A DNA stretch of 64,000 nt from Cyanobium usitatum str. Tous. Lineage in GTDB: Bacteria; Cyanobacteriota; Cyanobacteriia; PCC-6307; Cyanobiaceae. Below are positions 1,295-20,633 of this stretch, one piece after another. Numbering within the stretch: the stretch's first letter is position 1; each line of letters starts with the position of its first letter. The notes under the pieces are model-generated. The model saw only the letters and a program-made list of their open reading frames with translations, did no database searches and had not been told where the DNA came from. The position numbers and the translations under genes are program-made. The stretch lies in contig NZ_OY986431.1 in the NCBI RefSeq assembly GCF_963920485.1, forward strand, positions 1,798,001 through 1,862,000. The letters run 5' to 3'.

Positions 1295-2511
1295 GGAGTT
1301 TGCTGAAAAAGCCAGACGACTGCGGGAGAATGGTCCAAGGGAATTGAGTGGATGCGCTACCAGCAGGAACTGATCGTTCCCCTGCTCTCGTACATCTCCA
1401 AAGAAGACCGCATCCCAGCCACCCATCCCCTGCGGCAGGTGCGGCGGCTGGCCGGTCAGGCCTTCGATCGACTGAACCCGACCTTCTGCAAGATCTATCC
1501 CGAGGGCGGCAGGCCCTCAATTCCGCCAGAGTAGATGCTGCTGGCTCTGTTGCTGCAGGCGATCTACTGCATCCGTTCGGAGCGGATGCTGATCTAGCAG
1601 CTCGACTACAACCTGCTGTTCCGCTGGTTTGTTGGCTTCAACCCCGACGACCCGGTTTGGCATTCCACCACGTTCACGAAAATCGGGACCGACTGCTGAA
1701 CGAGGAGCTCATGGCCAAGTTCCTCGAACTCCTGCTTGCAGCGCATGAGGTCAAGCCTCTGCTGAGTTCGGAGCACTTCTCGGTGGATGGCACCCTGCTA
1801 CGGGCCTGGGCGTCACACAGCTCACAGGAGTGGATCGATGGGCTGGATGATGCCCCACCATCGCCCAGTTTTGGCGAAGGGTTTGGCGAGGCAAGCGGCG
1901 GAAAGAAGCGCGCCAAGGGTGCCTTCCGCGGCCTGTTGCTATCCAACCAAATCCACCGCTCCACAAGCGATGGAGAAGCCCGTCTTTTCAAGAAGGCTCC
2001 TGGCGTCAGCGCTTTCTTGAGCTTTCTGGGGCACTGCGTCATGGAGATCCGCAACGGCCTGTTGGTCGCCAGTGAAGTCAGCCAGGCCACCGGCAGGGCG
2101 GAGAGAGACGCCGCGCTGCGGATGGCCCGTTCGCTCCGTGGCACGCACCAGAAAACCCTGGGTGCCAACAAGGGCCACGACAGCCGGGAGTTCGTGGCCG
2201 ACCTGCGCATTAACGGCATCACGCCCCATGTGGCGCAGAACCTCACGCGCAGCGGTGGATCCGCGATTGATGGCCGCACCGCCCGCCACCAGATTTACGC
2301 CCAATCGATCAACGCGAGGAAGCGGATCGAGCAGGTATTCGGCTGGATCAAACAGGCCGCTGCCCTCGGGCAACTCAAGGCCAGAGGCCGATCAAAGGTG
2401 GGAGCGGTGTTCCGGCTGCATGTCGTGGCAGACAACCTGATCCGCATCACCAATCCGCTCAGAAGCCAGAGTGTGACAGCATGAAGCAGGTAATCAGGGG
2501 CCCAAAACTCC
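1295..2511 (+). mobile_element. Decayed IS5/IS1182-type insertion sequence (approximate limits)
   Basis: The element is defined by the broken transposase at 1352-2484. The left flank carries GGAGTTTGCTGAA (1295-1307). The right flank carries CCCAAAACTCC (2501-2511), which matches the complement of the left motif only in part (shared AAACTCC core), so the terminal repeats are eroded or the true ends lie nearby. No target-site duplication could be recognised. Limits are therefore approximate. Confidence 0.5.
1352..2484 (+). pseudogene. IS5/IS1182-family transposase, inactivated
   Basis: This was a DDE transposase with a DUF772-type N-terminus. The first ~60 codons are intact and then stop at an in-frame TAG (1532-1534), where the reading suggests an original CAG. 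A second TAG follows about 20 codons later. Near 1680 a one-base loss in an A run shifts the frame, and the remaining ~265 codons stay open to 2484. The C-terminal part still shows F-S-V-D-G-T (first Asp) and I-E-Q-V-F-G-W-I-K (Glu). The block usually written G-A-D-K-x-Y-D reads G-A-N-K-G-H-D, so the middle catalytic Asp also seems lost. It cannot make a working transposase. Confidence 0.85.
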
Positions 2512-6340: not shown

Positions 6341-6898
6341 TTAATTTGCCCCAATGGCCACCGGCAAGCGGGAGCTCAGCCGCCCCCCATCGGCCCAGGC
6401 CTGCGCCAATTCCAGCTGCAGCACCCCCGCGCCAGCGGGCTGGGCCCGGAAGCCAGCGCTGGCCGCCAGGGCATCGAGCACCACCCGGTTTTGGGCTGCG
6501 CCGCTGCCCAGCTCGCCATGCAGGCCATAGGCCGGTCCGCAGCGCATCAGCACCTGGCCCCGCCAGATCGGTTCAGCCGGCTTACCTAATGAATAGGTGA
6601 TCGGGCCAGAGGCCGTATCGAGATGCAGCACCACGCTGCGGCCCGCCAGGTTGCAGGCCGGCGCCAGCGCGGCCGGATCAGCGAGGCCCCGGGCTTGAAG
6701 CAGGTCGCCCCGCACCAGCTCCAGCGTGCGCCGGGCCACGGCCCGCTCGCGCAGCACCCGCGCAAAGCGCTGACCGCTAGTGAGCTCGGCCAAAACAGCC
6801 TGCAAAAGCAGCCCGCTTAGCGAGCAACCAATCAAAAGAGCAAGCAGCAGCTCCACCAGGGAAAAGCCCCTGGCGTTTGCCTTGGCAATCGCTTTCAT
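6341..6898 (-). CDS. Minor prepilin (PilW-like position)
   Basis: A 185-residue prepilin with a short leader ending R-G|F-S-L-V-E-L-L, conserved Glu5 and a hydrophobic helix. It is the last gene of a four-gene operon on the minus strand and starts at an ATGA overlap with the stop of the preceding gene (6895-6898). Minor pilins of this kind prime pilus assembly and form the tip complex of type IV pili or pseudopili. Two Cys (C-N-L-A-G and R-C-G-P) could form a disulfide. The operon order suggests a FimT/PilV/PilW/PilX-like set, but assignment to one named subunit is not certain. Confidence 0.75.
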   Translation of the reverse strand: MKAIAKANARGFSLVELLLALLIGCSLSGLLLQAVLAELTSGQRFARVLRERAVARRTLELVRGDLLQARGLADPAALAPACNLAGRSVVLHLDTASGPITYSLGKPAEPIWRGQVLMRCGPAYGLHGELGSGAAQNRVVLDALAASAGFRAQPAGAGVLQLELAQAWADGGRLSSRLPVAIGAN

Positions 6899-7425
6899 AG
6901 TGCCCCATCGGCAAGGCAGGCACTGCTGCTGGGTGGGCCGTCCAGGGGGCCGGTGTAGCGACCCAAGCGGCTCACCCCCAGCGGCAGCGACACCACCAGG
7001 CAGCGGCGCAGTTCCGTGCCAGGCGCAGCGATCACCACCGTGCCGCCATCGAGAATCAGTCCGTTGCTGCTGAAACGCAGGGCCCCGGGCAGGTTGTGCT
7101 GGAGCGTCACGGCGTCGCTGTCTTGCTGCTCGCTGCTGGCCACCACTGCCGCCAGACAGCCGGCCAGGCTGCCGCCACTGGGTTCGCTCCAACCGCTGGC
7201 ACCGAGCTCAAGAGCACAGGGCTGGCCATGGCTCTGGGCTTGCCGGCGCGCAGCCTCCAGGCCCACCCCGAGCCGGCGGCTGGCCGCCTCCACCCGCATT
7301 CGGGCCAGGCTGCGTTGGCCGCCATCTATGGCCAGGCTGGTCAGCAAGCCCAGCACCGCCACCGCCACCAGGAGCTCGGCCAGGCTGAAGCCTGAGCTGG
7401 CCTGGCTTTGCTCAAAGCGCCGCAT
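6895..7425 (-). CDS. Minor prepilin, GspH/FimT-like
   Basis: A 176-residue prepilin. Start ATG at 7423-7425. The leader ends S-G|F-S-L-A-E-L-L-V-A with Glu5 present, followed by a hydrophobic helix and a GspH/FimT-like body (G-L-E-A-A-R-R-Q-A-Q-S and a late disulfide-type Cys pair). In FimT-type subunits the body can bind DNA during uptake, but no such function is visible here. It overlaps both neighbours (14 bases upstream, 4 bases downstream), which means tight translational coupling within the operon. Confidence 0.75.
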   Translation of the reverse strand: MRRFEQSQASSGFSLAELLVAVAVLGLLTSLAIDGGQRSLARMRVEAASRRLGVGLEAARRQAQSHGQPCALELGASGWSEPSGGSLAGCLAAVVASSEQQDSDAVTLQHNLPGALRFSSNGLILDGGTVVIAAPGTELRRCLVVSLPLGVSRLGRYTGPLDGPPSSSACLADGAL

Positions 7426-7822
7426 CGCTCGGCTCCGCTGCAGGTTGGGATCCACACAAGCCGTAGGCCGCTGGGCTGAGCCAGCGCTGGCGCTGCACAC
7501 CTCCGGCGGTAGCAACCTGCAACCGCACCAGGGCACCGGGCTCGGCGCTCACCTGGCGCACAATGCCCTCGCCACTGGGCAGGCTTTGCAAATGGGCCGC
7601 AAGCCAGCTGCTGGCGGCCGTGCAATCAGCCGCGATCGTTGTGCCGGCCAGGGCCGTGAGCTGGGCCTGGCTAGCCAGGAGCGCTGCCTCCAGCTGGGCC
7701 GCGTGCTGCTGCTGGGCTTCCGCCTGTCGCGCCCAGCTGGCGCTGCCCGACCACAACTGCAAGGAGCAACTAGAGGACGTCACAAACATCGCCGAAGCCA
7801 CCATCGCTTCCACCAAGTTCAT
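7412..7822 (-). CDS. Small pilin-like protein, PilV-type N-terminus
   Basis: A 136-residue protein starting M-N-L-V-E-A-M-V-A-S-A-M-F, i.e. a prepilin-like hydrophobic helix with the conserved Glu, but with almost no leader: the ATG lies only 4 residues before the Glu. Either it is made already short or its signal is atypical. The body is Gln/Ala-rich with four Cys. It begins with ATGA overlapping the stop of the upstream gene (7819-7822), so it belongs to the operon. Confidence 0.65.
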   Translation of the reverse strand: MNLVEAMVASAMFVTSSSCSLQLWSGSASWARQAEAQQQHAAQLEAALLASQAQLTALAGTTIAADCTAASSWLAAHLQSLPSGEGIVRQVSAEPGALVRLQVATAGGVQRQRWLSPAAYGLCGSQPAAEPSDAAL

Positions 7823-8325
7823 GGCGCTACCCCATTGCTGGTGCGACCGCGCATACCCAGCTCCCGCACTGCCAGCAGCTGCTGGCTGCCGGGGCCTTCA
7901 GGGGTTACGGGGCGGGAAAGCTCCAGGCCATAGGCCGCCCGCAGGGCGCGGGGCTGCTCAGCCGTGGGCTGCAGTTCCAAGGTGGCGGCAGCGCGGCCCC
8001 GCTGCAGGCCGCTGGCAGCAAGGGCGACATCCCAATGGGGGCCATCAAAAGCCACCAAGCGATAGGCCACCGGGCCCACCTGGCCGGTTTGGCCCACGGC
8101 GGGGGTTACTGGCGCCGCCAGCAGGTGCTGGGCGGCCGACATCAACTGATCTTCCGCCTGTCGCAACCGCTGGCCGGCCTGCACCTGGCTGCGGGCCTGC
8201 AGCGCTGCGGCCTGCAGCGAAACGCTGCTGAGCACTAGCAGCAGCGAGGCTGTGGCAGAGAGGGGCAACACAAAACCAGCCGCCATCGGAGGGGGGCTAG
8301 CTAGGGAACGGGGGAACCGGGCCAT
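7819..8325 (-). CDS. PilX-like membrane-anchored minor pilin (first gene of operon)
   Basis: A 168-residue protein with one hydrophobic N-terminal segment (A-A-G-F-V-L-P-L-S-A-T-A-S-L-L-L) and an extracytoplasmic Gln/Ala-rich body, like PilX/GspK-type pilus tip proteins that lack Glu5. Start chosen at the ATG 8323-8325; the ATG at 8284-8286 just before the hydrophobic stretch is an alternative. It heads the four-gene operon that runs to 6341. Function is inferred from architecture and position rather than from strong similarity. Confidence 0.6.
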   Translation of the reverse strand: MARFPRSLASPPPMAAGFVLPLSATASLLLVLSSVSLQAAALQARSQVQAGQRLRQAEDQLMSAAQHLLAAPVTPAVGQTGQVGPVAYRLVAFDGPHWDVALAASGLQRGRAAATLELQPTAEQPRALRAAYGLELSRPVTPEGPGSQQLLAVRELGMRGRTSNGVAP

Positions 8326-8500
8326 GGGGCACCTGGCGCACAACGACGCGATCAGTGTTCCCACGGGCGGCAAAATCCTTGAAGCGGCGCTAATTTGCGG
8401 GGAATAGTGAGATCAAATGCGCCCCCCGGTGCGAGCTTTGCTGCAACGACCGGTGCGGTCCTGGTAGAAGCAGGAGCGACGGGAGCATCCGCGCTCGCAA

Positions 8501-10150
8501 GTGCGCAAGCCATTGCTACTGGCGCTGCTACTGCTCACGGCAGTGCTGGCCTGGTACCTGGGCCGCGACCTATTGGTGTTCGCCGCGCTGCTGGCAGTTG
8601 TGCTGCTGGTGCGCGCCAAAGTGATGCTGGAGCGGCGGCGCCAAAACCTACGCGAACTGCAGCTCGAGCAGACCTCAAGCCGGCGGCTGCGGCAGACCAG
8701 CCGCAACCTCGATGCGGTGCTGCAGCAGCTGGGCATGCCGCCCGACAGCTTTAAGCGCAGTGAGATCAACTTCAAGGTGAACCAGCTGGCCAGCCGCATA
8801 GAGTGGCTGCTGGAATCAGCGCGGTCGCTTGCGCTACTAGATTCACTCACCCAGCTGCCAAATCGGCGTCATTTCATTGAGCAGGTGCAGATCGAATCTG
8901 CCCGCTCAAAGCGCTCGCGTAAGCGCTTTGCGGTGTTGTTTATTGATGTCGATAAGTTCAAAGCGATCAACGACACCTACGGCCACGCCACCGGCGACCG
9001 GGCCCTGGTGGCGGTTTCGCAACGGCTCAAAGACACGATTCGGGCTGGCGATTTCCTCTCCCGCCTGGGTGGCGATGAATTTGCGGTGTTGATGGATCTC
9101 TCGGCGATTAAGAACAACTCGGAGCAAACCCTCAAGGCCCACGCCCATTTGTTTGCCTGCCGAATCATGGCGATGTTTGAGGAGCTAGCCAACCTCGACA
9201 ATGTCAGCATCGATATCGATATCAGCATTGGTGTAAATGTGGTAGATCCCGACTCCAGCGATCCAGAAGCCATATTGCGCCAGTCAGACCTGGCGATGGA
9301 TCAAGCCAAGAGCCAGCAACACGCCCGGGTAGCCGTATTCGATGTAGCCACTGCCAAGGGCGGCTACGACGACTACCAGCTCTACGCCGACCTCAAAGAT
9401 GCCCTGCGCCAAGGCGGCTTGAGCATGGCTTTTCAGCCGGTGGTGGATGGGGAGAAAAGGCTGCGCGGCGTAGAAGCCCTGGCCCGCTGGCGCCACCCCA
9501 GCCGGGGCATCATCGGCCCGGATGTGTTTCTTGATATCGCCGAGCGCTACCGGATGATGCGGGAACTTGGTGAGCACCTTTTCCAGCTGAGCCTCGATGG
9601 CTTCCTTGCCCTTGATGGCGCCCTGCAGCAGCCCGGGCTGAGGCTCTCCAGCAACGTGAGCCCGTCGCAATTAAGTGATCCCCAGCTGCAGGCTCGGCTG
9701 CTGGGCATGCTGGAGCGCACCGGCGTCGATCCCAAAAGGGTGACCCTGGAGATAACAGAGGCATCAATTCTGGATCGCTCCGCCACCACCGAAGCAAATC
9801 TGCAGGCCTTACGCGCCGCGGGCATCGAGCTATCGCTGGATGACTTCGGCACCGGCTACTCCTCACTCAACTTGATCAATACGCTGCAGCCAAACGAGAT
9901 CAAAATCGATCGCTCCTTTGTACTGGCTCTGCATACCGATCCATACGCCCGCCAGATCGTCGAAGTAATCGCCGGCATGTCCACCCAGATGCCCCTGCAC
10001 CTAGTAGCCGAAGGAGTAGAAGATGAGGCAACCTTCCAAGCCCTGCGCAAACTGGGCATTCAATACTTCCAAGGCTATTTATTCAGCAAACCCCTACCCG
10101 TTGCAGAGCTCGCCGCTTGCTACGGCGCAGCCATTAGTGCTGGCACCTAG
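8501..10150 (+). CDS. GGDEF-EAL cyclic di-GMP enzyme
   Basis: A 549-residue membrane protein. Two hydrophobic segments (about residues 5-20 and 24-38) are followed by a coiled linker, a GGDEF domain (G-G-D-E-F at 190-194) and an EAL domain (E-A-L at 325-327). The GGDEF active site is intact and is preceded by R-A-G-D at 181-184, the inhibitory I-site spacing. EAL catalytic features are also kept: N385, L-E-I-T-E near 416-420, D-D-F-G-T-G at 447-452, the K of I-K-I-D and a late V-A-E-G-V-E. It may make and break c-di-GMP, a signal for the switch between motility and surface attachment. Starts at GTG 8501, divergent from the pilin operon. Confidence 0.88.
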   Translation: MRKPLLLALLLLTAVLAWYLGRDLLVFAALLAVVLLVRAKVMLERRRQNLRELQLEQTSSRRLRQTSRNLDAVLQQLGMPPDSFKRSEINFKVNQLASRIEWLLESARSLALLDSLTQLPNRRHFIEQVQIESARSKRSRKRFAVLFIDVDKFKAINDTYGHATGDRALVAVSQRLKDTIRAGDFLSRLGGDEFAVLMDLSAIKNNSEQTLKAHAHLFACRIMAMFEELANLDNVSIDIDISIGVNVVDPDSSDPEAILRQSDLAMDQAKSQQHARVAVFDVATAKGGYDDYQLYADLKDALRQGGLSMAFQPVVDGEKRLRGVEALARWRHPSRGIIGPDVFLDIAERYRMMRELGEHLFQLSLDGFLALDGALQQPGLRLSSNVSPSQLSDPQLQARLLGMLERTGVDPKRVTLEITEASILDRSATTEANLQALRAAGIELSLDDFGTGYSSLNLINTLQPNEIKIDRSFVLALHTDPYARQIVEVIAGMSTQMPLHLVAEGVEDEATFQALRKLGIQYFQGYLFSKPLPVAELAACYGAAISAGT

Positions 10151-12922: not shown

Positions 12923-13525
12923 ATGGATCAGTCGCACCTTCCCAAGCCGCAAGCCCGAGAGGATCGCCGGCTTGTGAATCGGGATGAGGCTCTGAACCTG
13001 CTGTTTGCCGCAGCCCAGGATGTGGCAAGGGAGGAGGGCAAGCTGGCTGATGGCGTGTATGGCTCCCTGGAGCAGTCGCACATCAGTTCCACCAGCTTCA
13101 CGCTGAAGAGTGCCAGTGGCCAGATGATTGCCCGGGTGTCCCTGGCTAAGGCAAGGGAGGTGATCGGTATTCGGCGTCAGATTGCGCGAGATATTACCCG
13201 CAATGCAGGGCTGGAGATCACACCTTATGCAAACGACCAATCAAATAAACGTAATTTACGTAATCTCCCTGAGGAAATCCGGGCGATTACCTGGGCGATC
13301 AGCAGTGGCCGTAGGTTTCCGGCTAAGGGCTACCAGAGGCGCGACATCTGGATCGGTCTGCTGCTTTTGATCCCAGGCATCATCCCAGGGGTGCTGTATC
13401 TGGGCTGGATCGCGCAGAAGCGCCGTCGCTATGAAAAAAGACTCAAAGAGCTGGTAACTCGCTGGCGTACCAACGGGCGGCAGGAGCCTGCTGCGAACCT
13501 ATTCGCCCATTTCCACCTGGACTAA
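12923..13525 (+). CDS. Hypothetical single-span membrane protein
   Basis: A 200-residue protein not recognised as a known family. The first ~140 residues are charged and soluble; one membrane segment (I-W-I-G-L-L-L-L-I-P-G-I-I-P-G-V) follows at about residues 149-172, and the tail is strongly basic (Q-K-R-R-R-Y-E-K-R) with R-W-R-T-N-G-R. It lies 53 bases before nfu on the same strand. A decayed, membrane-segment-deleted relative lies at about 14159-14357, so the gene was once duplicated. Confidence 0.65.
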   Translation: MDQSHLPKPQAREDRRLVNRDEALNLLFAAAQDVAREEGKLADGVYGSLEQSHISSTSFTLKSASGQMIARVSLAKAREVIGIRRQIARDITRNAGLEITPYANDQSNKRNLRNLPEEIRAITWAISSGRRFPAKGYQRRDIWIGLLLLIPGIIPGVLYLGWIAQKRRRYEKRLKELVTRWRTNGRQEPAANLFAHFHLD

Positions 13526-13578
13526 GCCAGGCACTGGCCCAGCCGTCCTAAGCTGCAGCACCATACCGGCTGGCCCAA

Positions 13579-13851
13579 ATGAGCAGCGAAACCACTAGCG
13601 CAGCCCCCGCCCAAGACCCCCACGCCCTGACGCTGGAAAACGTGGAGCGCACCCTCGATGAGCTGCGCCCCTACCTAATGGCCGACGGCGGCAACGTGGA
13701 AGTGGTGGAAATCGACGGCCCGATCGTGAAAGTGCGCCTGCAGGGCGCCTGCGGCAGCTGCCCGAGCAGCACGATGACGCTCAAGATGGGGATTGAGCGC
13801 AAGCTAAGGGAGGCGATTCCCGAGGTGAGCGAGGTCATTCAAGTTATATAA
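13579..13851 (+). CDS. nfu: NfuA/NifU-C-type iron-sulfur scaffold protein
   Basis: A 90-residue Nfu domain protein that holds a transient [4Fe-4S] cluster and passes it to apo-proteins; in cyanobacteria it serves photosystem I and other Fe-S enzymes. The core [11 protein letters not shown] and the cluster-binding C-G-S-C-P-S-S are present, with the expected C-terminal helix ([11 protein letters not shown]). A second, shortened copy is at 19123-19299 with about 94% identity over ~135 bases. Confidence 0.92.
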
Positions 13852-14158
13852 ACCAACCAAGTCGAAATACCAATCAATTCCAGCCGCTGGCCATCGATTC
13901 ACCACAATAAATGCACAACCAGGGCTTCCATTGCTGGAGCCTCAAAATATAATTAAGCCCGGCTTACGACTGCCCAGCGACCTATGACTTAGCAAGTCAA
14001 CTAGGGGCTCCTGGGAAGGCATCATCTTTGAGATTGTACCAATCTCAAAGAGCGATATGCGTCGAACCGGCCTTGACCAGGACAATTGACGCTTGCTTCA
14101 GCTGCCGAGCACCACAGATTCACAGACGTCACCTTCCTAGACGCATTGGGAAAATGAA
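13852..14158. other. Intergenic stretch without a recognisable gene
   Basis: About 300 bases between nfu and the decayed membrane-protein copy, more AT-rich than its surroundings. Apart from the perfect inverted repeat at 14025-14051 and a short palindrome GACTTAGCAAGTC near 13986, nothing was recognised. It most likely holds eroded remains of the duplicated block. Confidence 0.4.
14025..14051. repeat. Perfect 12-bp inverted repeat, 3-base loop
   Basis: TCTTTGAGATTG (14025-14036) is followed by TAC and then CAATCTCAAAGA (14040-14051). It would form a strong hairpin, but no T run follows on either strand. It lies between nfu and the decayed gene copy and could be a small palindromic element or protein site. 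Confidence 0.55.
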
Positions 14159-14357
14159 TTGCTCAAGCACCTGCGGCTCTGTGATGAGGAAATGCGGGCT
14201 CTGGCGTGGGCCATCAGCCAGGGGGTCTTGGGTATGGCTAATCCGTCGTTATGTGGCCTACCGCAAATCTGTTGAAGATCTCATTCTTCGCTGGCGCATG
14301 AATGGCAAACGAGACCCCGACCCGTGCTTTTTCAAGCTTTACAGCCGAAAAGGGTAG
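14159..14357 (+). pseudogene. Decayed copy of the 12923-13525 membrane-protein gene
   Basis: In one frame 14165-14225 reads L-R-L-C-D-E-E-M-R-A-L-A-W-A-I-S-Q-G, matching L-R-N-L-P-E-E-I-R-A-I-T-W-A-I-S-S-G of the intact gene. In another frame 14230-14357 reads W-L-I-R-R-Y-V-A-Y-R-K-S-V-E-D-L-I-L-R-W with R-M-N-G-K-R, matching its C-terminus. The N-terminal half and the membrane segment are missing and a frameshift separates the two parts, so it is a remnant. Confidence 0.7.
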
Positions 14358-14494
14358 TCAGGCGTTAACAACCATCACAAAGGTGTCCATGCTGAGCACT
14401 GCCGTTTGCGGGCACCTTCCCCAGCCCTAGGCTGAATCCAGCACCCCTGGCAAAGTCAACGAAGAAGCCGGGATCCTTCAGTGGAGTAGTGAGG

Positions 14495-17248
14495 ATGTCT
14501 GGCCCCTTGAACCGACGCCTGCGAGTGGCCAAGGTGCTGATGCATGCTCTCGTCGCCAGTCGGCGCTCCGAAGATCACGGTGTAATCACCGTGGCAGTGG
14601 GAATCGTGGCGGCCCTGGTGCTGATCCTCAGCGGTGCGGCGATCGTGCAGTTGAGCAGCGGCAACCTGCGCGGGGTTTTTGCCTCCTCCGACACCCGCCA
14701 GGCGCGAGGGGCTGCGGCCGAGGGCACGGATCTGATGATCGACACCTGGAACCAGCCCCAGAACCGTCGGCTGCTCGTATCGGGCCAGACCCCCACCACC
14801 TGGAACGCAGCCAACCTCAGAAGCCCCTGTTTTGAGTCAACCACCAACACCCGGCCCGGCCCCAACAATGACGGACTTCCCGATCAAGCCGCCATCAATT
14901 TGGGTGATGGCCAGTGGCGCAATGTGGTGAGCGGAGCAGTGGCCACTGCCACGCAGGATGGGCGGCAGTTCAGGCTGGTTCGGATCAGTTTCACCGCCTC
15001 AAACGGCGGCGCCACCCCCAATCCCCGCGGCCTGCGGCGCACCGCAACCCCTGGGGCTGCCGCCACCGGCGACACCCTGCCCGCGGGAGTCACCAGCTGG
15101 GACCAGCTGGTGAACCTCGATGATCCGGATGGTCTCGGCAACGCCCAGCCCGGGAGCAACAGGGGCTTTGTGGTGCTGGAGGTGGAGGGACGAGTGGTGC
15201 GCAATGGCCAGGTGATAGCCAACTCCCGAGAAACCCGCGAATTCGAGGTGCTGCCCAAGTGCTGCGGCGCCTCGGTGGGAAGCAACAACTCCGGCGGCAT
15301 GAACTACGCAGGCACCACTGGCTCGCTGGGCTCAGACAGCCGCGTGTGCAATCTCCAGTATGGAGTGGTTACAGGCTTCAACGATGGCTGGCATTGGTCG
15401 TATTTCGCCAACGACCAATTCACCCAGAGGAATCCCATCACAGGCGCGGTGGAGCGCTATTCGCCGATTCTTGGCGTGGTGGCAAACCCTGGCGATCTCT
15501 TCGAGCGCAGTAACTGCCGGGTGCGACCCGGCCGGGGCAAACTTGAATCTGGGGACTGCCCGGAAACATTCCAATCAGGCGATCCACGCGGCAACGATTC
15601 CAGCTTCAACACCAACATCCGTGGTGCTGGTGCACCCGATGCTGCTGAGCTGATCTGCCAGCAAACAGGCACTCCCAGATATTTTTCTGGTCCTGAATCT
15701 GATATCCGCGGCACATCGGCATCATGTTCACCGATCGTGCCTCTCCAAGCGACGGCCTTTCCCAACGTCAACGACTTTGTCCTCGGATGGACCGCAGGCT
15801 GGGGACCAAGAAACATCATCACCCTGGCTACGGCCACCACCAACCAAGTGGCCAATGCAGCCATCTGGCCCAGCCTCAGCACCGACAACGGCGACGGCAC
15901 AAGACCCAACAGCCAGGCCACCCTTCGCCTGCGCACCAACAATGAGGCCAACCGGCAGCGGGTGGAGCTCTGCTTGACCGATAAGACAGCGGCAAGCTCC
16001 GACAACTGCACCGCCAACACCTGGCTGAATGTGACAGCTTCTGAGGCACCGAACAGCAACTTCTACGGGCTCGGAGCCAGCGCCACGGACAGCCAGGTCT
16101 TCCTCGGCGCAAACAACCTTTCAAACACTCCAGCTACAAATTTAATAATACTTGGCAACGCGACCAAAGCAAATACCCAATTGTTCAGAGACGTCAACCT
16201 CGACAGCTTTTCAGGGCCGCGACTGCAGACGCCATTCCTGGAGTTTGCCGTGCAAAAATCAGCTGCCTTTGATACTAACGATCTGCTAATTATAGAGGCA
16301 TCGCCTGATAACGGAACCACCTTCTATCCGCTGACCTCCGCATCCATCCCGGGAAGCGCCATCACAACAAACGCAGCTGGCACAACATTCCGCCTAGGGC
16401 TTCCATTTTCCGGTTCCAACGTTCGCATCCGGTTTCGCGATGGAAACGGATGGGCCACCGGTGAAAACATCACAATTACCGACCTCGAGATCAGTTCCGT
16501 CAATCCCCCGGCGGCAAGCACGCAATCCCTCTATCCGATCTTCCGCGGCCCCTGGTGTCAGTTCAGCAGCAGCTCCCCCGTCACGGCCGAGCCGGGCTTC
16601 CATTGCATCGGTCCCACCGTCAACCAATTCGACGGCGGTCGCGTGTTCATCGACACCACCGGCGGCCCCTTGAGTTTTGTTTATAACGAACCCACCGAAA
16701 CCGACCGGCGATTCGGCATTGCCAATACGGCAAATCCGGAACGCTTCATCTTCCTTTCGCAGTCACCCGCCCAATTCACCCACGTCTTTTGCCCCTCCAT
16801 CGTATCCGAATGCGCCAACGTCATCGATGATCAAACCTACAATTTCTCCGCCGTTGGCGAGCCTGATCGACTCAACTTCTTCGGTCGCAACACTGGATCA
16901 GCCGGCCAGGAACAGAACGTTTCAATTACAACGCCGTTTGGACAAACCGCCAAGGTAGGTGGCGTGTGGTTCTATCTACCCCAGGGGTTCGTGGAACTCA
17001 CCATCAATGACTCTGGAGCAGCCGGCAGCGTTCCAGCAGGCTTCTACACCAACAACGAAGACAACTGGAGCTTCTACGGCCGAATCTGGGTGAAGAACTT
17101 CAAGCCCTTCGGCGCATTCCACCTGAGACTGCCCGATTCCAGGGTGGCTGGGGCTGGCGCCCTGGGGGTTGCCAACCCCGCCCAGTTCACCTCCCAGAGC
17201 GGTGTCGACTGGGTCGCCCGTGCCACCACCAGTGCCCGACTTTGGTGA
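14495..17248 (+). CDS. Large pilus-operon protein, likely pilus-tip or adhesin-like
   Basis: A 917-residue protein that opens an operon with three prepilins. After a ~30-residue basic N-terminus comes one hydrophobic segment (V-I-T-V-A-V-G-I-V-A-A-L-V-L-I-L-S-G) like the anchor of PilX-type proteins, then ~850 residues that should lie outside the membrane, rich in Asn, Thr, Gly and Ser with scattered Cys pairs (C-C-G-A, C-R-V-R, C-P-E). No catalytic motif was seen. The ATG at 14495 fits the GGAG nine bases upstream; a GTG at 14489 is in frame. Its stop overlaps the next start. Position suggests an adhesive tip component presented by minor pilins; this is inference. Confidence 0.7.
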   Translation: MSGPLNRRLRVAKVLMHALVASRRSEDHGVITVAVGIVAALVLILSGAAIVQLSSGNLRGVFASSDTRQARGAAAEGTDLMIDTWNQPQNRRLLVSGQTPTTWNAANLRSPCFESTTNTRPGPNNDGLPDQAAINLGDGQWRNVVSGAVATATQDGRQFRLVRISFTASNGGATPNPRGLRRTATPGAAATGDTLPAGVTSWDQLVNLDDPDGLGNAQPGSNRGFVVLEVEGRVVRNGQVIANSRETREFEVLPKCCGASVGSNNSGGMNYAGTTGSLGSDSRVCNLQYGVVTGFNDGWHWSYFANDQFTQRNPITGAVERYSPILGVVANPGDLFERSNCRVRPGRGKLESGDCPETFQSGDPRGNDSSFNTNIRGAGAPDAAELICQQTGTPRYFSGPESDIRGTSASCSPIVPLQATAFPNVNDFVLGWTAGWGPRNIITLATATTNQVANAAIWPSLSTDNGDGTRPNSQATLRLRTNNEANRQRVELCLTDKTAASSDNCTANTWLNVTASEAPNSNFYGLGASATDSQVFLGANNLSNTPATNLIILGNATKANTQLFRDVNLDSFSGPRLQTPFLEFAVQKSAAFDTNDLLIIEASPDNGTTFYPLTSASIPGSAITTNAAGTTFRLGLPFSGSNVRIRFRDGNGWATGENITITDLEISSVNPPAASTQSLYPIFRGPWCQFSSSSPVTAEPGFHCIGPTVNQFDGGRVFIDTTGGPLSFVYNEPTETDRRFGIANTANPERFIFLSQSPAQFTHVFCPSIVSECANVIDDQTYNFSAVGEPDRLNFFGRNTGSAGQEQNVSITTPFGQTAKVGGVWFYLPQGFVELTINDSGAAGSVPAGFYTNNEDNWSFYGRIWVKNFKPFGAFHLRLPDSRVAGAGALGVANPAQFTSQSGVDWVARATTSARLW

Positions 17249-17895
17249 CCTTCCCACAGCGCGTGCAGCGGCGCCTCCGGGAGCTGCATCCCCAGGAACG
17301 GGGTGGCTTTCTGGTTGAGGCGTTGGTGGTGAGCGTGATCGTGACCGTTGCCCTGCTCGGCACACTCAGCGTGTTCAATATTTCCTCCCAGCTGCGCAAT
17401 CGGGCAGGTGAACGCAGCCAACTCAACGACGCCATCGACGCCGATCTGGCAGCCATTGAGGATCGGGCTGCAGACCTCACCTGTTGCACCGGAGTGTGCA
17501 GGCTGGGCTTGGCCGGCGTGACCACAGACAACACGGCCCCCTTCACCCAGCCGTGCAACACCGCCAATCGACGCGACGATCGCTATTTCTACCCTCAACT
17601 TGATTCGGATACTCTGACTGCCGGCAGTGAGGCGGAAACCGTGGATGCCCTCTGCCGGGAACCCGTGCGCGGAATCATCAGCGATGCCGTGTTGATCGAG
17701 TTCAACACCATCCCGGTCAATGGCGCCCTCACGACAGGCGGTGGCGCCCGGGCTCCGATCGTGCGCCTCAACAGCGTTCAGAACCAGCTGGGCAATCAGA
17801 ACATCCTTCAGGTCACTTACACCGACACCAACAGCGGGAACGCGGTCGTGCGCGTCGCGCGCGTGGTGCCCCCCATGGCCCGCTTCTGCCCATGA
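17245..17895 (+). CDS. PilV-like minor prepilin
   Basis: A 216-residue prepilin with the cleavage region R-G-G|F-L-V-E-A-L-V-V-S, conserved Glu5 and a hydrophobic helix, followed by a body with C-C-T-G-V-C and other Cys. The GTG at 17245 overlaps the stop of the preceding large gene (GTGA); a TTG at 17242 is an alternative. It overlaps the next gene by 4 bases. PilV-type subunits help form the tip complex of type IV pili. Confidence 0.75.
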   Translation: MTFPQRVQRRLRELHPQERGGFLVEALVVSVIVTVALLGTLSVFNISSQLRNRAGERSQLNDAIDADLAAIEDRAADLTCCTGVCRLGLAGVTTDNTAPFTQPCNTANRRDDRYFYPQLDSDTLTAGSEAETVDALCREPVRGIISDAVLIEFNTIPVNGALTTGGGARAPIVRLNSVQNQLGNQNILQVTYTDTNSGNAVVRVARVVPPMARFCP

Positions 17896-18455
17896 CGCGT
17901 CCTCGACCTCCCAGCAGCGGCTTCAGCCTTCCGGAAATGTTGATCACGGTGGTGATCCTCGGCGTGATCGCTGCCATTGGAACCGACTCCCTGGTGAACC
18001 TCGCCCGGCGCGAGCGCGCCAACTCTGTGACCACCGAACTGACGGGTTGGCTCGATCAGGTGAGTCGCGATGCCAGCCGCTTCAATGCCCAGGCCGGTGG
18101 CGCCCTCTGCACCGTGACCATCAGCACCGGCACCGTAGCCGTCGGAGCCCAGCTGGCCAGGATCGAACCCGCTGCCTGCGCCTCCCAAAACATCCTCACG
18201 CTGTCGGACCTCTACGCCAACAACGCCAGCGCCACTATCACCGGCACCCCATCCCAGTTTGTGTTCACCCCACGCGGCACCCTCTCCACCACCACCAACG
18301 CCGCTCTTCCCAACGGCCAGGTGCTGATCAACATCAACGTGAACAATGAGCGTCCCCTCCGGTGCATACGCCTAGTGGGCCTGATCGGGGTGCTGGAGGT
18401 GGGGCGCAACAACGCGGCCGCAACGGGTGCCTGCACCGAGTGGGGTCGGGTGTAA
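17892..18455 (+). CDS. FimT/GspH-like minor prepilin
   Basis: A 187-residue prepilin with an eight-residue proline-rich leader and the site S-G|F-S-L-P-E-M-L-I-T, Glu5 kept, then a hydrophobic helix and an Ala/Thr/Asn-rich body with Cys at A-L-C-T, A-C-A-S, L-R-C-I and G-A-C-T. It starts with ATGA overlap at 17892-17895, so it is coupled to the PilV-like gene. Confidence 0.75.
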   Translation: MTRPRPPSSGFSLPEMLITVVILGVIAAIGTDSLVNLARRERANSVTTELTGWLDQVSRDASRFNAQAGGALCTVTISTGTVAVGAQLARIEPAACASQNILTLSDLYANNASATITGTPSQFVFTPRGTLSTTTNAALPNGQVLININVNNERPLRCIRLVGLIGVLEVGRNNAAATGACTEWGRV

Positions 18456-18459
18456 CGCA

Positions 18460-19113
18460 ATGACCAATCCCGTCTCCAGCCCGAAGCTCCCCAGGCCCCA
18501 GGCCCCATCCCAGCACGGGTTCACCCTCGTGGAACTGCTGGTGGCCCTGGCGATCAGCGCCCTGTTCGTGCCCCTGATCTGGAGCAGCATTCAGGGAGCC
18601 ATTCGATTTTTCGAAGCCAACCTCTGGCAGGTGCAGCTTGAGCGTGATCTCAACCGTGTTTCAACCCTTCTCGATGCGGAGGCGGTGGATGCCTGTGTGT
18701 TCGGCACCACCGCCGCGCCAGCCGCCTGCGCCGCAGCCGCTCCCGTGTGCGCCGCAGCAGCAAACCAACTGCGCATGCGCGTGACCCTGTTGGATGCCAA
18801 CAGTGTTCCCACCGGCGCCGATGCGGTGATCCTTTACACCCGCAACACGGCGACCAACGAGCTCCTCCGCTCTGGCCCCCAGATCCTGGCAAACGGCCGG
18901 CTCGATCCCGCCAACACCGCCGCCAACGACCAGCTGGTGATGCGTGGCGTCACCGGCTTCGCCGTGACCCCCAACAACGACTGTGACACCGCCACCGTGA
19001 CCATCACCGCTACCCCTGTGGCCCCCAACACCTTCACCACTACGCAGGGATTCGGCAATCCCGTGACCCGCACTATCGGCCTGCGCACCGGCTCTCGCCC
19101 TTATGTGGACTGA
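18460..19113 (+). CDS. PilW-like minor prepilin
   Basis: A 217-residue prepilin with a longer leader ending H-G|F-T-L-V-E-L-L-V-A and Glu5 present. A hydrophobic helix and a body with several Cys (D-A-C-V, A-A-C-A, P-V-C-A) follow. The ATG at 18460 lies 4 bases after the preceding stop. It is the last pilin gene of the operon; only 9 bases separate it from the shortened nfu copy at 19123. Confidence 0.75.
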   Translation: MTNPVSSPKLPRPQAPSQHGFTLVELLVALAISALFVPLIWSSIQGAIRFFEANLWQVQLERDLNRVSTLLDAEAVDACVFGTTAAPAACAAAAPVCAAAANQLRMRVTLLDANSVPTGADAVILYTRNTATNELLRSGPQILANGRLDPANTAANDQLVMRGVTGFAVTPNNDCDTATVTITATPVAPNTFTTTQGFGNPVTRTIGLRTGSRPYVD

Positions 19114-19122
19114 GTTGCATCC

Positions 19123-19299
19123 ATGTCCAGCCCCCCCGATGAGCTGCGCCCCTATCTGATGGCCGACGGCGGGAACGTGGAAGTGGTGGAAATCGACGGC
19201 CCCATCGTGAAGGTGCGCCTGCAGGGCGCCTGCGGCGGCTGCCCCAGCAGCACGATGACGCTCAAGATGGGAGTCGCCGAAGTGGTGCAGGTGCTCTGA
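19123..19299 (+). CDS. Shortened second copy of nfu
   Basis: Encodes 58 residues: M-S-S-P-P joined to [14 protein letters not shown], the cluster motif C-G-G-C-P-S-S, then [11 protein letters not shown]. Compared with the gene at 13579 it lacks ~18 N-terminal residues and eleven residues of the C-terminal helix, and one motif residue is Gly instead of Ser. The two motif Cys remain. It may be a small working scaffold or a frame-retaining relic. Nucleotide identity with the full copy is about 94% over the shared ~135 bases. Confidence 0.65.
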
Positions 19300-19355
19300 G
19301 CACCACGGGGCACCACTCCGTTGGCTTTTAGGCTCCCCCCAACCGCCCCGCCCCC

Positions 19356-20633
19356 GTGCTCGACCAGCGCCTCCTGCGCGACAGCCCTGAGCTGATCACC
19401 ACCCAGCTGGCCCGCCGGGGCATGGCGCTAGACCTCGCTCCACTGCAGCAAATCGCCCGCCAGGAGCGCGATCTCGAGGAGCAGCGCAGCAATCTTCAAG
19501 CCGAGGGCAACCGCATCGGCAAGGCGGTGGGGCAGCTGATTCAAGGCGGATCTGCGCCAAACAGCCCCGAGGTGCAGGCCCTGCGCGACCAGGGCAACGC
19601 CATCAAGCAGCAGGTGGCAGCACTTGAGGAGCAGGAAAAAGCTCTGGAGCTGCAGCTGCGCGATGCCCTATCGGCCCTGCCCAACCTGCCCTCGCCCGAG
19701 GCGCCCGATGGTCGCAGCGAAGCCGACAACATCGAAATCAAGCGTTGGGGCAGCCCCCGCATCGAAGCCGGACTGCAGGAGCACTGGCAGATCGGGGAGC
19801 GGCTGGGGCTGTTTGAAACCGAGCGCTCCGTGCGCATCGCCCAGAGCCGTTTCATCACCCTGATGGGTGCTGGCGCCCGCCTGGAGCGGTCCCTGATCAG
19901 CTTCATGCTCGATCTGCACACCGCCAAGGGCTACCGGGAGGTGATGCCGCCAATCCTGGTGAATTCCGCCAGTCTCACGGGTTCGGGCCAGCTGCCCAAA
20001 TTCGCCGAGGAGAGCTTCCGCTGCGCCGACGACGACCTCTGGCTCACCCCCACCGCCGAGGTGCCCCTCACCTCCCTGCACCGCGATGAGGTGCTTCCTG
20101 CCGAGCAGCTGCCGCTCAAATACGCCGCCTACACCCCCTGCTTCCGCCGCGAAGCCGGCAGCTACGGCCGCGACACCCGTGGCCTGATCCGCCTGCACCA
20201 GTTCAACAAGGTGGAGCTCTACTGGTTTTGCCATCCCGACCACTCCGCCGCTGCCCACCAGCAGATCACCGCTGACGCAGAAGCCGTGCTGGAGGCCCTC
20301 GAGCTGCCCTACCGCAAGATCGAGCTCTGCACCGGTGACATGGGCTTCTCCGCCGCCCGCACCTACGACCTCGAGGTGTGGCTGCCCGGCGCCGGCTCCT
20401 ACCGCGAGATCTCCAGCTGCTCGGTGTGCAACGACTTCCAGTCCCGCCGCTCCGCCATCCGCTTCAAAGACGGCAAAAACACCCGCCTGCTCCACACCCT
20501 CAACGGCTCCGGCCTCGCCATCGGCCGCACCATGGCCGCCCTACTCGAAACCGGCCAGCAGGCTGATGGCTCCGTCAAGCTCCCCGCCGCCCTTGTGCCC
20601 TACTTCGGCGGCGACACGATCGCTGGGGGGTGA
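19356..20633 (+). CDS. serS: Seryl-tRNA synthetase
   Basis: A 425-residue class II synthetase that charges tRNA-Ser. The N-terminal ~110 residues form the charged antiparallel coiled coil that grips the long tRNA-Ser arm. The catalytic domain shows T-A-E-V-P-L, motif 2 F-R-R-E-A-G-S-Y-G-R-D-T-R-G and motif 3 G-S-G-L-A-I-G-R-T. The start is the GTG at 19356, which fits the family N-terminus M-L-D-Q-R-L-L-R. Gene order serS-rseP-rpsN-pnp is seen in related cyanobacteria, here with TA genes and a broken porin gene between serS and rseP. Confidence 0.97.
   Translation: MLDQRLLRDSPELITTQLARRGMALDLAPLQQIARQERDLEEQRSNLQAEGNRIGKAVGQLIQGGSAPNSPEVQALRDQGNAIKQQVAALEEQEKALELQLRDALSALPNLPSPEAPDGRSEADNIEIKRWGSPRIEAGLQEHWQIGERLGLFETERSVRIAQSRFITLMGAGARLERSLISFMLDLHTAKGYREVMPPILVNSASLTGSGQLPKFAEESFRCADDDLWLTPTAEVPLTSLHRDEVLPAEQLPLKYAAYTPCFRREAGSYGRDTRGLIRLHQFNKVELYWFCHPDHSAAAHQQITADAEAVLEALELPYRKIELCTGDMGFSAARTYDLEVWLPGAGSYREISSCSVCNDFQSRRSAIRFKDGKNTRLLHTLNGSGLAIGRTMAALLETGQQADGSVKLPAALVPYFGGDTIAGG

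Follow-up and report, generated by a model that had tools for sequence, protein, structure and literature searches.

INTRODUCTION

GspK, GspI and GspJ form a tip complex (PMC6561018, PMC8179133), and modular pilins that carry lectin-like or vWA modules have been described (PMC8179133). ComZ of Thermus thermophilus is a pilin with a β-solenoid placed before its last strand; the solenoid is closest to ice-binding proteins, and ComZ binds DNA (PMC6561018). In Synechocystis, flocculation requires the whole pilA9-slr2019 minor-pilin operon (PMC6755745). A review from 2025 on the pili of cyanobacteria states that minor-pilin sets define pilus function, and describes filament composition as little known, the tip-forming minor pilins as hard to tell and their role as needing fuller understanding (PMC12288463; here and below, statements from these papers refer to the available parts of their text). 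We analysed a 64-kb stretch of DNA (the window; positions 1,798,001 to 1,862,000 of contig NZ_OY986431.1) in a 2.66 Mb single-contig genome. It contains a four-gene operon in which a gene for a 917-residue protein (the head) precedes three genes for small prepilin-like proteins (PV, FT and PW). A sequence-only reading of this DNA had suggested a pilus-tip system resembling PilY1-type adhesins with their minor pilins. Our results indicate that the operon probably encodes an exchangeable tip complex, in which a ComZ-like K-type modular pilin would present a glycan- or surface-binding module.

RESULTS

The head has a prepilin-like N-terminus and is predicted to occupy the K position

The operon is real and lies where the sequence-only reading had placed it (Table 1), as its open reading frames, their start/stop overlaps and its recurrence in public genomes show. 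Because the order head-PV-FT-PW recurs across loci from such genomes, the arrangement is not due to chance. The proposed translational coupling can be read directly in the DNA: the TGA of the head overlaps the GTG of PV (GTGA, 17245-17248; an in-frame TTG is also present at 17242), the TGA of PV overlaps the ATG of FT (ATGA, 17892-17895), and the ATG of PW comes 4 bases after the FT stop. An additional in-frame GTG lies at 14489, just ahead of the head ATG, and PW has an alternative GTG start at 18427. The small proteins had been described as PilV-, FimT- and PilW-like prepilins; this holds for two of the three at the Pfam N_methyl cut-off, while PV has no Pfam match, though its motif is readable. 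The I, H and J labels that we use for them rest on motif and position. Genome-wide, five N_methyl matches were found, every one inside the window, and there are no tandem repeats in 13000-20000.

K-position minor pilins (GspK/PilX) typically lack Glu5. Residues 1-29 of the head are basic and end in Gly, and a hydrophobic helix comes next. We aligned 23 head sequences, one of which (L044) begins too late for the N-terminal region; in 22 of the 22 heads with this region (window included) a Gly stands ahead of the hydrophobic stretch, and in none of the 22 is there a Glu at +5. The sites were chosen by script and nine ambiguous rows (L020, L024-L027, L030, L032, L033 and L039) were re-read by eye; the absence of Glu holds under the alternative Gly that is possible in these 9 rows. 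Given the prepilin-type N-terminus, the lack of Glu at +5 and a predicted pilin-like sheet (see below), the head is most readily interpreted as a pilin that takes the place of GspK/PilX and not as a PilY1-like partner of pilins. As is usual for a K-type pilin, it is encoded together with I-, H- and J-type pilins.

This assignment is supported by the parallel gene order of another minor-pilin set in the window (the second set), in apparent K-I-H-J order, a parallel that rests on motifs. Its first protein, of 184 aa, is K-like (GFVLPLSATASLLL) and likewise lacks Glu at +5, and its third member is a GspH match. The head does lead its operon, as had been remarked, and the second set provides a parallel for this order. 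Pilin frames resembling the second set occur near lepA in several other same-genus genomes.

Predicted fold of the head: a ComZ-like pilin with an additional β-sandwich

Pfam and NCBIfam hold no family for the head, so that the statement that it has no known domain is correct at this level, and a phmmer search of the head against PDB sequences gave two weak matches alone (E 0.22 and 1.4). Structure prediction had been suggested as a check, and we modelled the head with AlphaFold2 (23 alignment rows, mean predicted local distance difference test score (pLDDT) 62.5). This modest model contains pilin-like strands behind an N-terminal helix, strands at 550-667 within a β-sandwich, and further strands up to residue 910. 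In the VIA fold comparison it matched ComZ (6qvi) with Z 9.3 over residues 56-912 (309 aligned, root-mean-square deviation (rmsd) 11.0).

As the solenoid of the window head is interrupted, we also modelled the 567-aa head relative that Cyanobium usitatum carries at the same chromosomal site (L038; 21 rows, mean pLDDT 58.3). Residues 257-527 of this model matched ice-binding solenoids (VIA Z 11.8-12.3) and residues 70-562 matched ComZ (Z 10.7, 314 of 498 aligned, rmsd 10.5), the next row after ComZ being haemolysin A with Z 6.3; however, for repeats such as a solenoid a VIA Z below ~13 may reflect a common arrangement alone, which weakens the ComZ match. The matches to the pilins 7o5y (Z 5.6) and 6qvf (Z 4.7) run from the N-terminal part to the last strand, in agreement with the ComZ topology described in the available text of PMC6561018. 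ComZ was not among the 50 best Foldseek rows for either model and surfaced through VIA only; a fold's absence from these listings was given no weight as evidence. The models thus modestly support a resemblance of both heads to ComZ, a tip pilin with an inserted β-solenoid.

The sandwich of the window head (residues 520-670) matched reelin (VIA Z 11.2, 122 aligned, rmsd 3.0) and the carbohydrate-binding module (CBM) families CBM4, CBM15 and CBM29 (Z 8.5-9.1, with CBM15 and CBM4-2 both at 9.1). Foldseek likewise placed CBM4-2 at the top for this model (E 4.6e-4, rmsd 12.6), with matches also to a xanthanase (E 5.7e-4, rmsd 4.0) and CBM29 (E 6.4e-4, rmsd 12.0). The columns of the sandwich are occupied in ~15 of the 23 aligned heads, and the Pfam model Reelin_subrepeat-B is above cut-off in one relative (L022, E 1.4e-6) and weak in another (L021). 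A profile of the 23 heads gave four matches among PDB sequences: reelin (E 0.015 and 0.025), hyaluronate lyase (E 0.024) and Pvc11 (E 0.086). The predicted structure has the jelly-roll β-sandwich of a carbohydrate-binding module, and with its pilin module plus an extra domain it has the composition of a modular pilin. By its fold the sandwich resembles a CBM, and a role in sugar binding is putative. Thus the head, said to show no recognisable resemblance, does resemble ComZ and CBM/reelin domains by predicted fold, and by sequence it shows just the weak reelin and lyase matches.

Table 1. Features of the operon, of the head and of the neighbouring DNA (positions in the window)
Feature	Position	Strand	Remark
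Head gene, 917 aa	14495-17248	+	ATG start; predicted K-type (GspK/PilX/ComZ-like) modular tip pilin
Gly29 of the head, position -1 of the predicted prepilin peptidase cut (HG↓VITVA)	14579-14581	+	from sequence only; Ala, and no Glu, at +5
N-terminal helix, model residues 31-54 and 58-85	14585-14749	+	pLDDT <50 in 21-34 and 46-62
Pilin-like strands, model residues 156-256	14960-15262	+	pLDDT 77-88 in most blocks, low at 208-221
Reelin/CBM-like β-sandwich, residues ~520-670	16052-16504	+	from fold comparison
C-terminal β region, residues 688-880	16556-17134	+	counterpart in short relative modelled as β-solenoid (ice-binding/ComZ-like)
C-terminal strand, residues 904-910 (DWVAR region)	17204-17224	+	putative final strand of the pilin sheet, by analogy with ComZ
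Prepilin-like open reading frame PV, I/PilV position	17245-17895	+	GG↓FLVEAL motif; no Pfam match
Prepilin FT, H/FimT position	17892-18455	+	GF-SLPEM; N_methyl 26.4 bits (cut-off 21.2)
Prepilin PW, J/PilW position	18460-19113	+	GF-TLVEL; N_methyl 31.4 bits (cut-off 21.2)
nifU, flanking the insertion site on the left	13579-13851	+	
serS, flanking the insertion site on the right	19356-20633	+	
Decayed 3' part of the L019-type 200-aa upstream gene	14125-14345	+	86-87% to L019, continuous with the operon
Decayed second nifU copy	19130-19271	+	93.7% to intact nifU at 13649-13790
Second minor-pilin set	6341-8373	-	apparent K-I-H-J order

The cassette was probably replaced or inserted by recombination beside nifU and serS

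The window genome is closely related to the C. usitatum genome: its LepA is 100% identical to that of C. usitatum str. Tous (L038), and its identity to L016, which is the same contig, is 85-95% over shared blocks of at least 900 bases. In a lepA tree the window groups with C. usitatum. In a tree of FT pilins, in contrast, it pairs with L019 (support 100/100), a metagenome-assembled genome whose lepA is 94% identical to that of the window. The three pilins are 88-89% and the heads 69% identical between window and L019, compared with 28% (PV), 36% (FT) and 27% (head) between window and C. usitatum, where no match for PW was detected. Homology with C. usitatum ends at 13835 and restarts at 19347, the nifU copy excepted, and the block 14125-19118 follows L019. 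The decayed nifU copy behind the operon is nearer to the host's own nifU than to that of L019 (83.1%). Thus LepA goes with C. usitatum, the cassette goes with L019, and decayed copies of neighbouring genes flank the cassette; the simplest reading of these sequences is that the cassette arrived by replacement or insertion through recombination.

Empty sites in related genomes further support this reading. In a same-genus sample of 15 genomes, 12 were examined, serS being missing or cut in the other 3. The cassette lies between nifU and serS in four of the 12 and elsewhere near lepA in two (L061 and L062), while in six (L057-L060, L063 and L064) the site is empty, with nifU and serS ~40-60 bases apart (5.5 kb in the window). 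The cassette is oriented with serS in the window and in G012, and against serS in G005, G014 and G007. A gene for a hypothetical protein of 200 aa (12923-13525, plus strand) adjoins nifU in the window; it accompanies the examined nifU-serS cassettes apart from L042 and is missing from all six empty-site genomes.

Within the cassette, the head differs more than the pilins. Between window and L019, 48 of 338 fourfold degenerate sites differ in the pilins, compared with 12/60 in head residues 1-100 and 152/300 in residues 101-917 (32/50 within residues 520-670); the corresponding counts are 38/195 for serS and 109/274 for lepA. Along the window head the G+C content at third codon positions (GC3) varies (0.53-0.80); the pilins of the window have a GC3 of 0.77-0.81, and serS has 0.85. 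In a head region whose GC3 is similar to that of the pilins (residues 151-300, 0.76-0.80), 33 of 72 fourfold sites differ versus 48/338 in the pilins (the Fisher tests on these counts treat sites as independent). An intragenic exchange, in which the exposed part of the head was swapped on a conserved base, is therefore likely from these sequences, if not proven.

The head family is patchily distributed among Cyanobiaceae

A scan of GTDB genomes, for which six aligned heads served as the query, yielded 26 loci, four of which (L021, L035, L038 and L039) are apparently the query-alignment genomes G020, G014, G012 and G007 and hence not independent. Loci for which a genus is named come from Cyanobium, Synechococcus, Vulcanococcus, Aphanothece and Microcystis elabens. 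The order head-PV-FT-PW is complete in 15 loci and partial in 7, and in the remaining 4 the contig ends close behind the head. Most of the loci (22/26) adjoin lepA, nifU, serS, rseP or pnp: ten lie between serS and rseP (in L032 there are serS fragments only), six between nifU and serS, one between rseP and pnp (L022), one between lepA and nifU (L019), and four have one of these genes on one side and a contig end on the other; the other four adjoin none of them. In six loci (L020, L024, L025, L026, L029 and L033) a second pilin set lies across serS, and in Synechococcus sp. CS-1328 (L034, 3266-11313) there are two tandem head cassettes, each with its own pilins.

The profile of 23 heads matched in 70 of 251 Cyanobiaceae genomes, the own genome included; these 251 were drawn evenly from a larger group, at most three candidates were scored per genome, and some of the genomes had supplied rows of the profile. 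A single-protein search with the window head gave matches in 6 of 60 genomes. At the class level, the profile search gave matches in 39 of 291 genomes, 5 of them of the same family; those outside the family are weak (E 4e-14 or worse) and lie mostly within the N-terminal region or the solenoid region at the C-terminus. The frames concerned are mostly ~400-700 aa long, with some of 230-270 and some of 1,700-2,500 aa. Complete heads form two size classes, ~830-1120 aa and ~560-655 aa. Heads are cut or interrupted in 5 of the 26 loci (L030, L037, L041-L043). In L037, L041, L042 and L043 the head frames stop early (211-365 aa from stop to stop), which may reflect decay, a frameshift, a contig end or an assembly error.

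DISCUSSION

We propose that the operon supplies an alternative, exchangeable tip complex for the type IV pilus of the cell. Prepilin peptidase would cut the head after Gly29, and the mature protein would combine a ComZ-style pilin fold, a solenoid ahead of the last strand and the additional CBM/reelin-like sandwich. Together with the I-, H- and J-type pilins, the head would initiate assembly of the pilus and remain at its tip, from where the sandwich and the solenoid may contact a glycan or a surface in cell-cell, particle or mucilage adhesion. The cassette would move among strains by recombination beside nifU/serS, and strains would in this way change their pilus specificity with motor and major pilin kept. 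The claim of a pilus-tip system is supported in a changed form, as the head itself is prepilin-like, has a pilin-like predicted fold and is coupled to minor pilins.

Several points weigh against this proposal. Both models are modest, the ComZ alignments are flexible (rmsd 10.5-11), Foldseek returned nothing at E < 0.001 for the L038 model, ComZ is not among the four PDB matches of the head profile, and the only DUF7305 matches, in 3 of the 23 heads, are all in short heads and all below cut-off. The Pfam models PilX_N and T2SSK matched none of the 23 heads; the head is therefore placed by position and predicted fold and not filed in those curated families. The sandwich also matches reelin, meprin, ephrin receptor and Cry toxins, non-sugar binders by title, and no glycan-binding residue was identified in the head, for which no binding-site analysis was made. 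As for the intragenic exchange suggested by the comparison with L019, codon use could partly explain the synonymous difference between head and pilins, and serS and lepA are twofold apart, indicating an uneven background. Finally, ComZ binds DNA, and the genome encodes ComEC.

This last point leads to the main rival explanation, in which a ComZ-like head would cap a competence pilus and bind DNA for uptake, the sandwich being accessory. The predicted ComZ-like fold, the DNA binding of ComZ itself (PMC6561018, available text) and the presence of ComEC are all as this explanation would have it. We nevertheless consider it rather unlikely, since the family is patchy (70/251), none of the six same-genus genomes whose nifU-serS site is empty gave a head match (at most three candidates scored per genome), the head carries an extra CBM-like module, and the second minor-pilin set could serve competence. 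With the flocculation operon, the function-defining minor-pilin sets and the modular pilins described elsewhere as precedents, a glycan- or surface-binding tip is the reading that we rate highest.

The four proteins might otherwise belong to a type II-like secretion pseudopilus, with the head as a substrate-capturing secretion tip. K-type pilins also cap the pseudopili of type II secretion systems (PMC6561018, available text), and FT has weak NCBIfam matches to GspG and GspH, far below cut-offs. This is improbable in view of the single PilC-type platform protein in the genome (the T2SSF search found one 420-aa frame with two half-domains), the major-pilin-like gene at 680-1267 and the nearer likeness of ComZ and modular pilins. 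Still less credible is a non-pilin tip adhesin of the PilY1 type, the kind of protein that the gene layout had called to mind: a large, exported, β-rich protein is indeed coupled to minor pilins, but the head has a prepilin-type leader and a predicted pilin-like fold, and the PilY1 family (PF05567) was not found in the genome. We rejected the PilY1 reading on these grounds; the head looks like the K member of the minor-pilin set instead. The profile comparison that had been suggested thus found no PilY1 match in the genome and no PilX_N match in the head, and no Pfam match to the PilY1 β-propeller domain was seen in the head. PF05567 matched in 1 of 194 class genomes and 0 of 14 control genomes, so that the controls alone could not decide.

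We tentatively suggest that the nifU-serS-rseP region of freshwater picocyanobacteria is an exchange site for whole tip cassettes and that recombination within the head replaces the exposed module while the pilin base is conserved, so that strains change their pilus specificity for a partner, particle, grazer or phage in a manner similar to phage tail-fibre swaps; we regard this as a possibility somewhat short of even. With four defined genes that are present in some close relatives, absent from others and exchanged for different alleles, the question of the pilus tip becomes testable. The ComZ architecture would thereby be known from a new setting, joined to a CBM-like module. For freshwater picocyanobacteria, the gene set also offers a genetic basis on which strains may differ in adhesion, aggregation or recognition.

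Elsewhere in the window, a DDE transposase gene (DDE_Tnp_1, 1348-2484, plus strand) lies just downstream of the major-pilin-like gene, and a gene for a GGDEF-EAL protein (8501-10150, plus strand) lies between the second minor-pilin set and lepA; control of pili by cyclic di-GMP is conceivable.

Among the matches listed in our literature search, which left most subscription papers outside, no title concerned cyanobacterial ComZ-like pilins and no paper paired Cyanobium with a minor pilin. The head can be compared with systems known from elsewhere. It shares with GspK and PilX the hydrophobic helix after Gly, the lack of Glu at +5 and the I-, H- and J-like pilins encoded alongside, and differs in having no Pfam match to these families; it is also, presumably, several times larger. 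The parallel to PilY1/PilC lies in the concept of a large adhesin placed at the tip alongside minor pilins, but PilY1 is not a pilin and has another domain, and the window genome has no match to its family. The Synechocystis pilA9-slr2019 operon, with slr2018, is likewise a cyanobacterial minor-pilin operon (PMC6755745, available text); slr2018, however, is listed after the pilins. PilB of Streptococcus sanguinis is a pilin that bears a non-pilin module and is argued to be located at the tip, and the modules treated in the available text of that paper include carbohydrate-binding ones (PMC8179133). In PilB, however, the vWA module is C-terminal, whereas the modules of the window head apparently lie between pilin strands, and the N-terminal motif of the head is missed by the usual models. 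A near likeness is ComZ (PDB 6qvi), a very large K-type pilin that the modest models of the heads appear to resemble in a pilin fold with a solenoid ahead of the last strand, and that is likewise encoded beside other minor pilins; the head differs from it in that the profile search gave no sequence match to ComZ, in carrying the extra CBM/reelin-like sandwich and in being encoded in an exchangeable cassette. Modular tip pilins are thus already known, and the window head is best read as a further variant, in which the ComZ architecture is combined with a CBM-like insert in a cassette swapped between strains.

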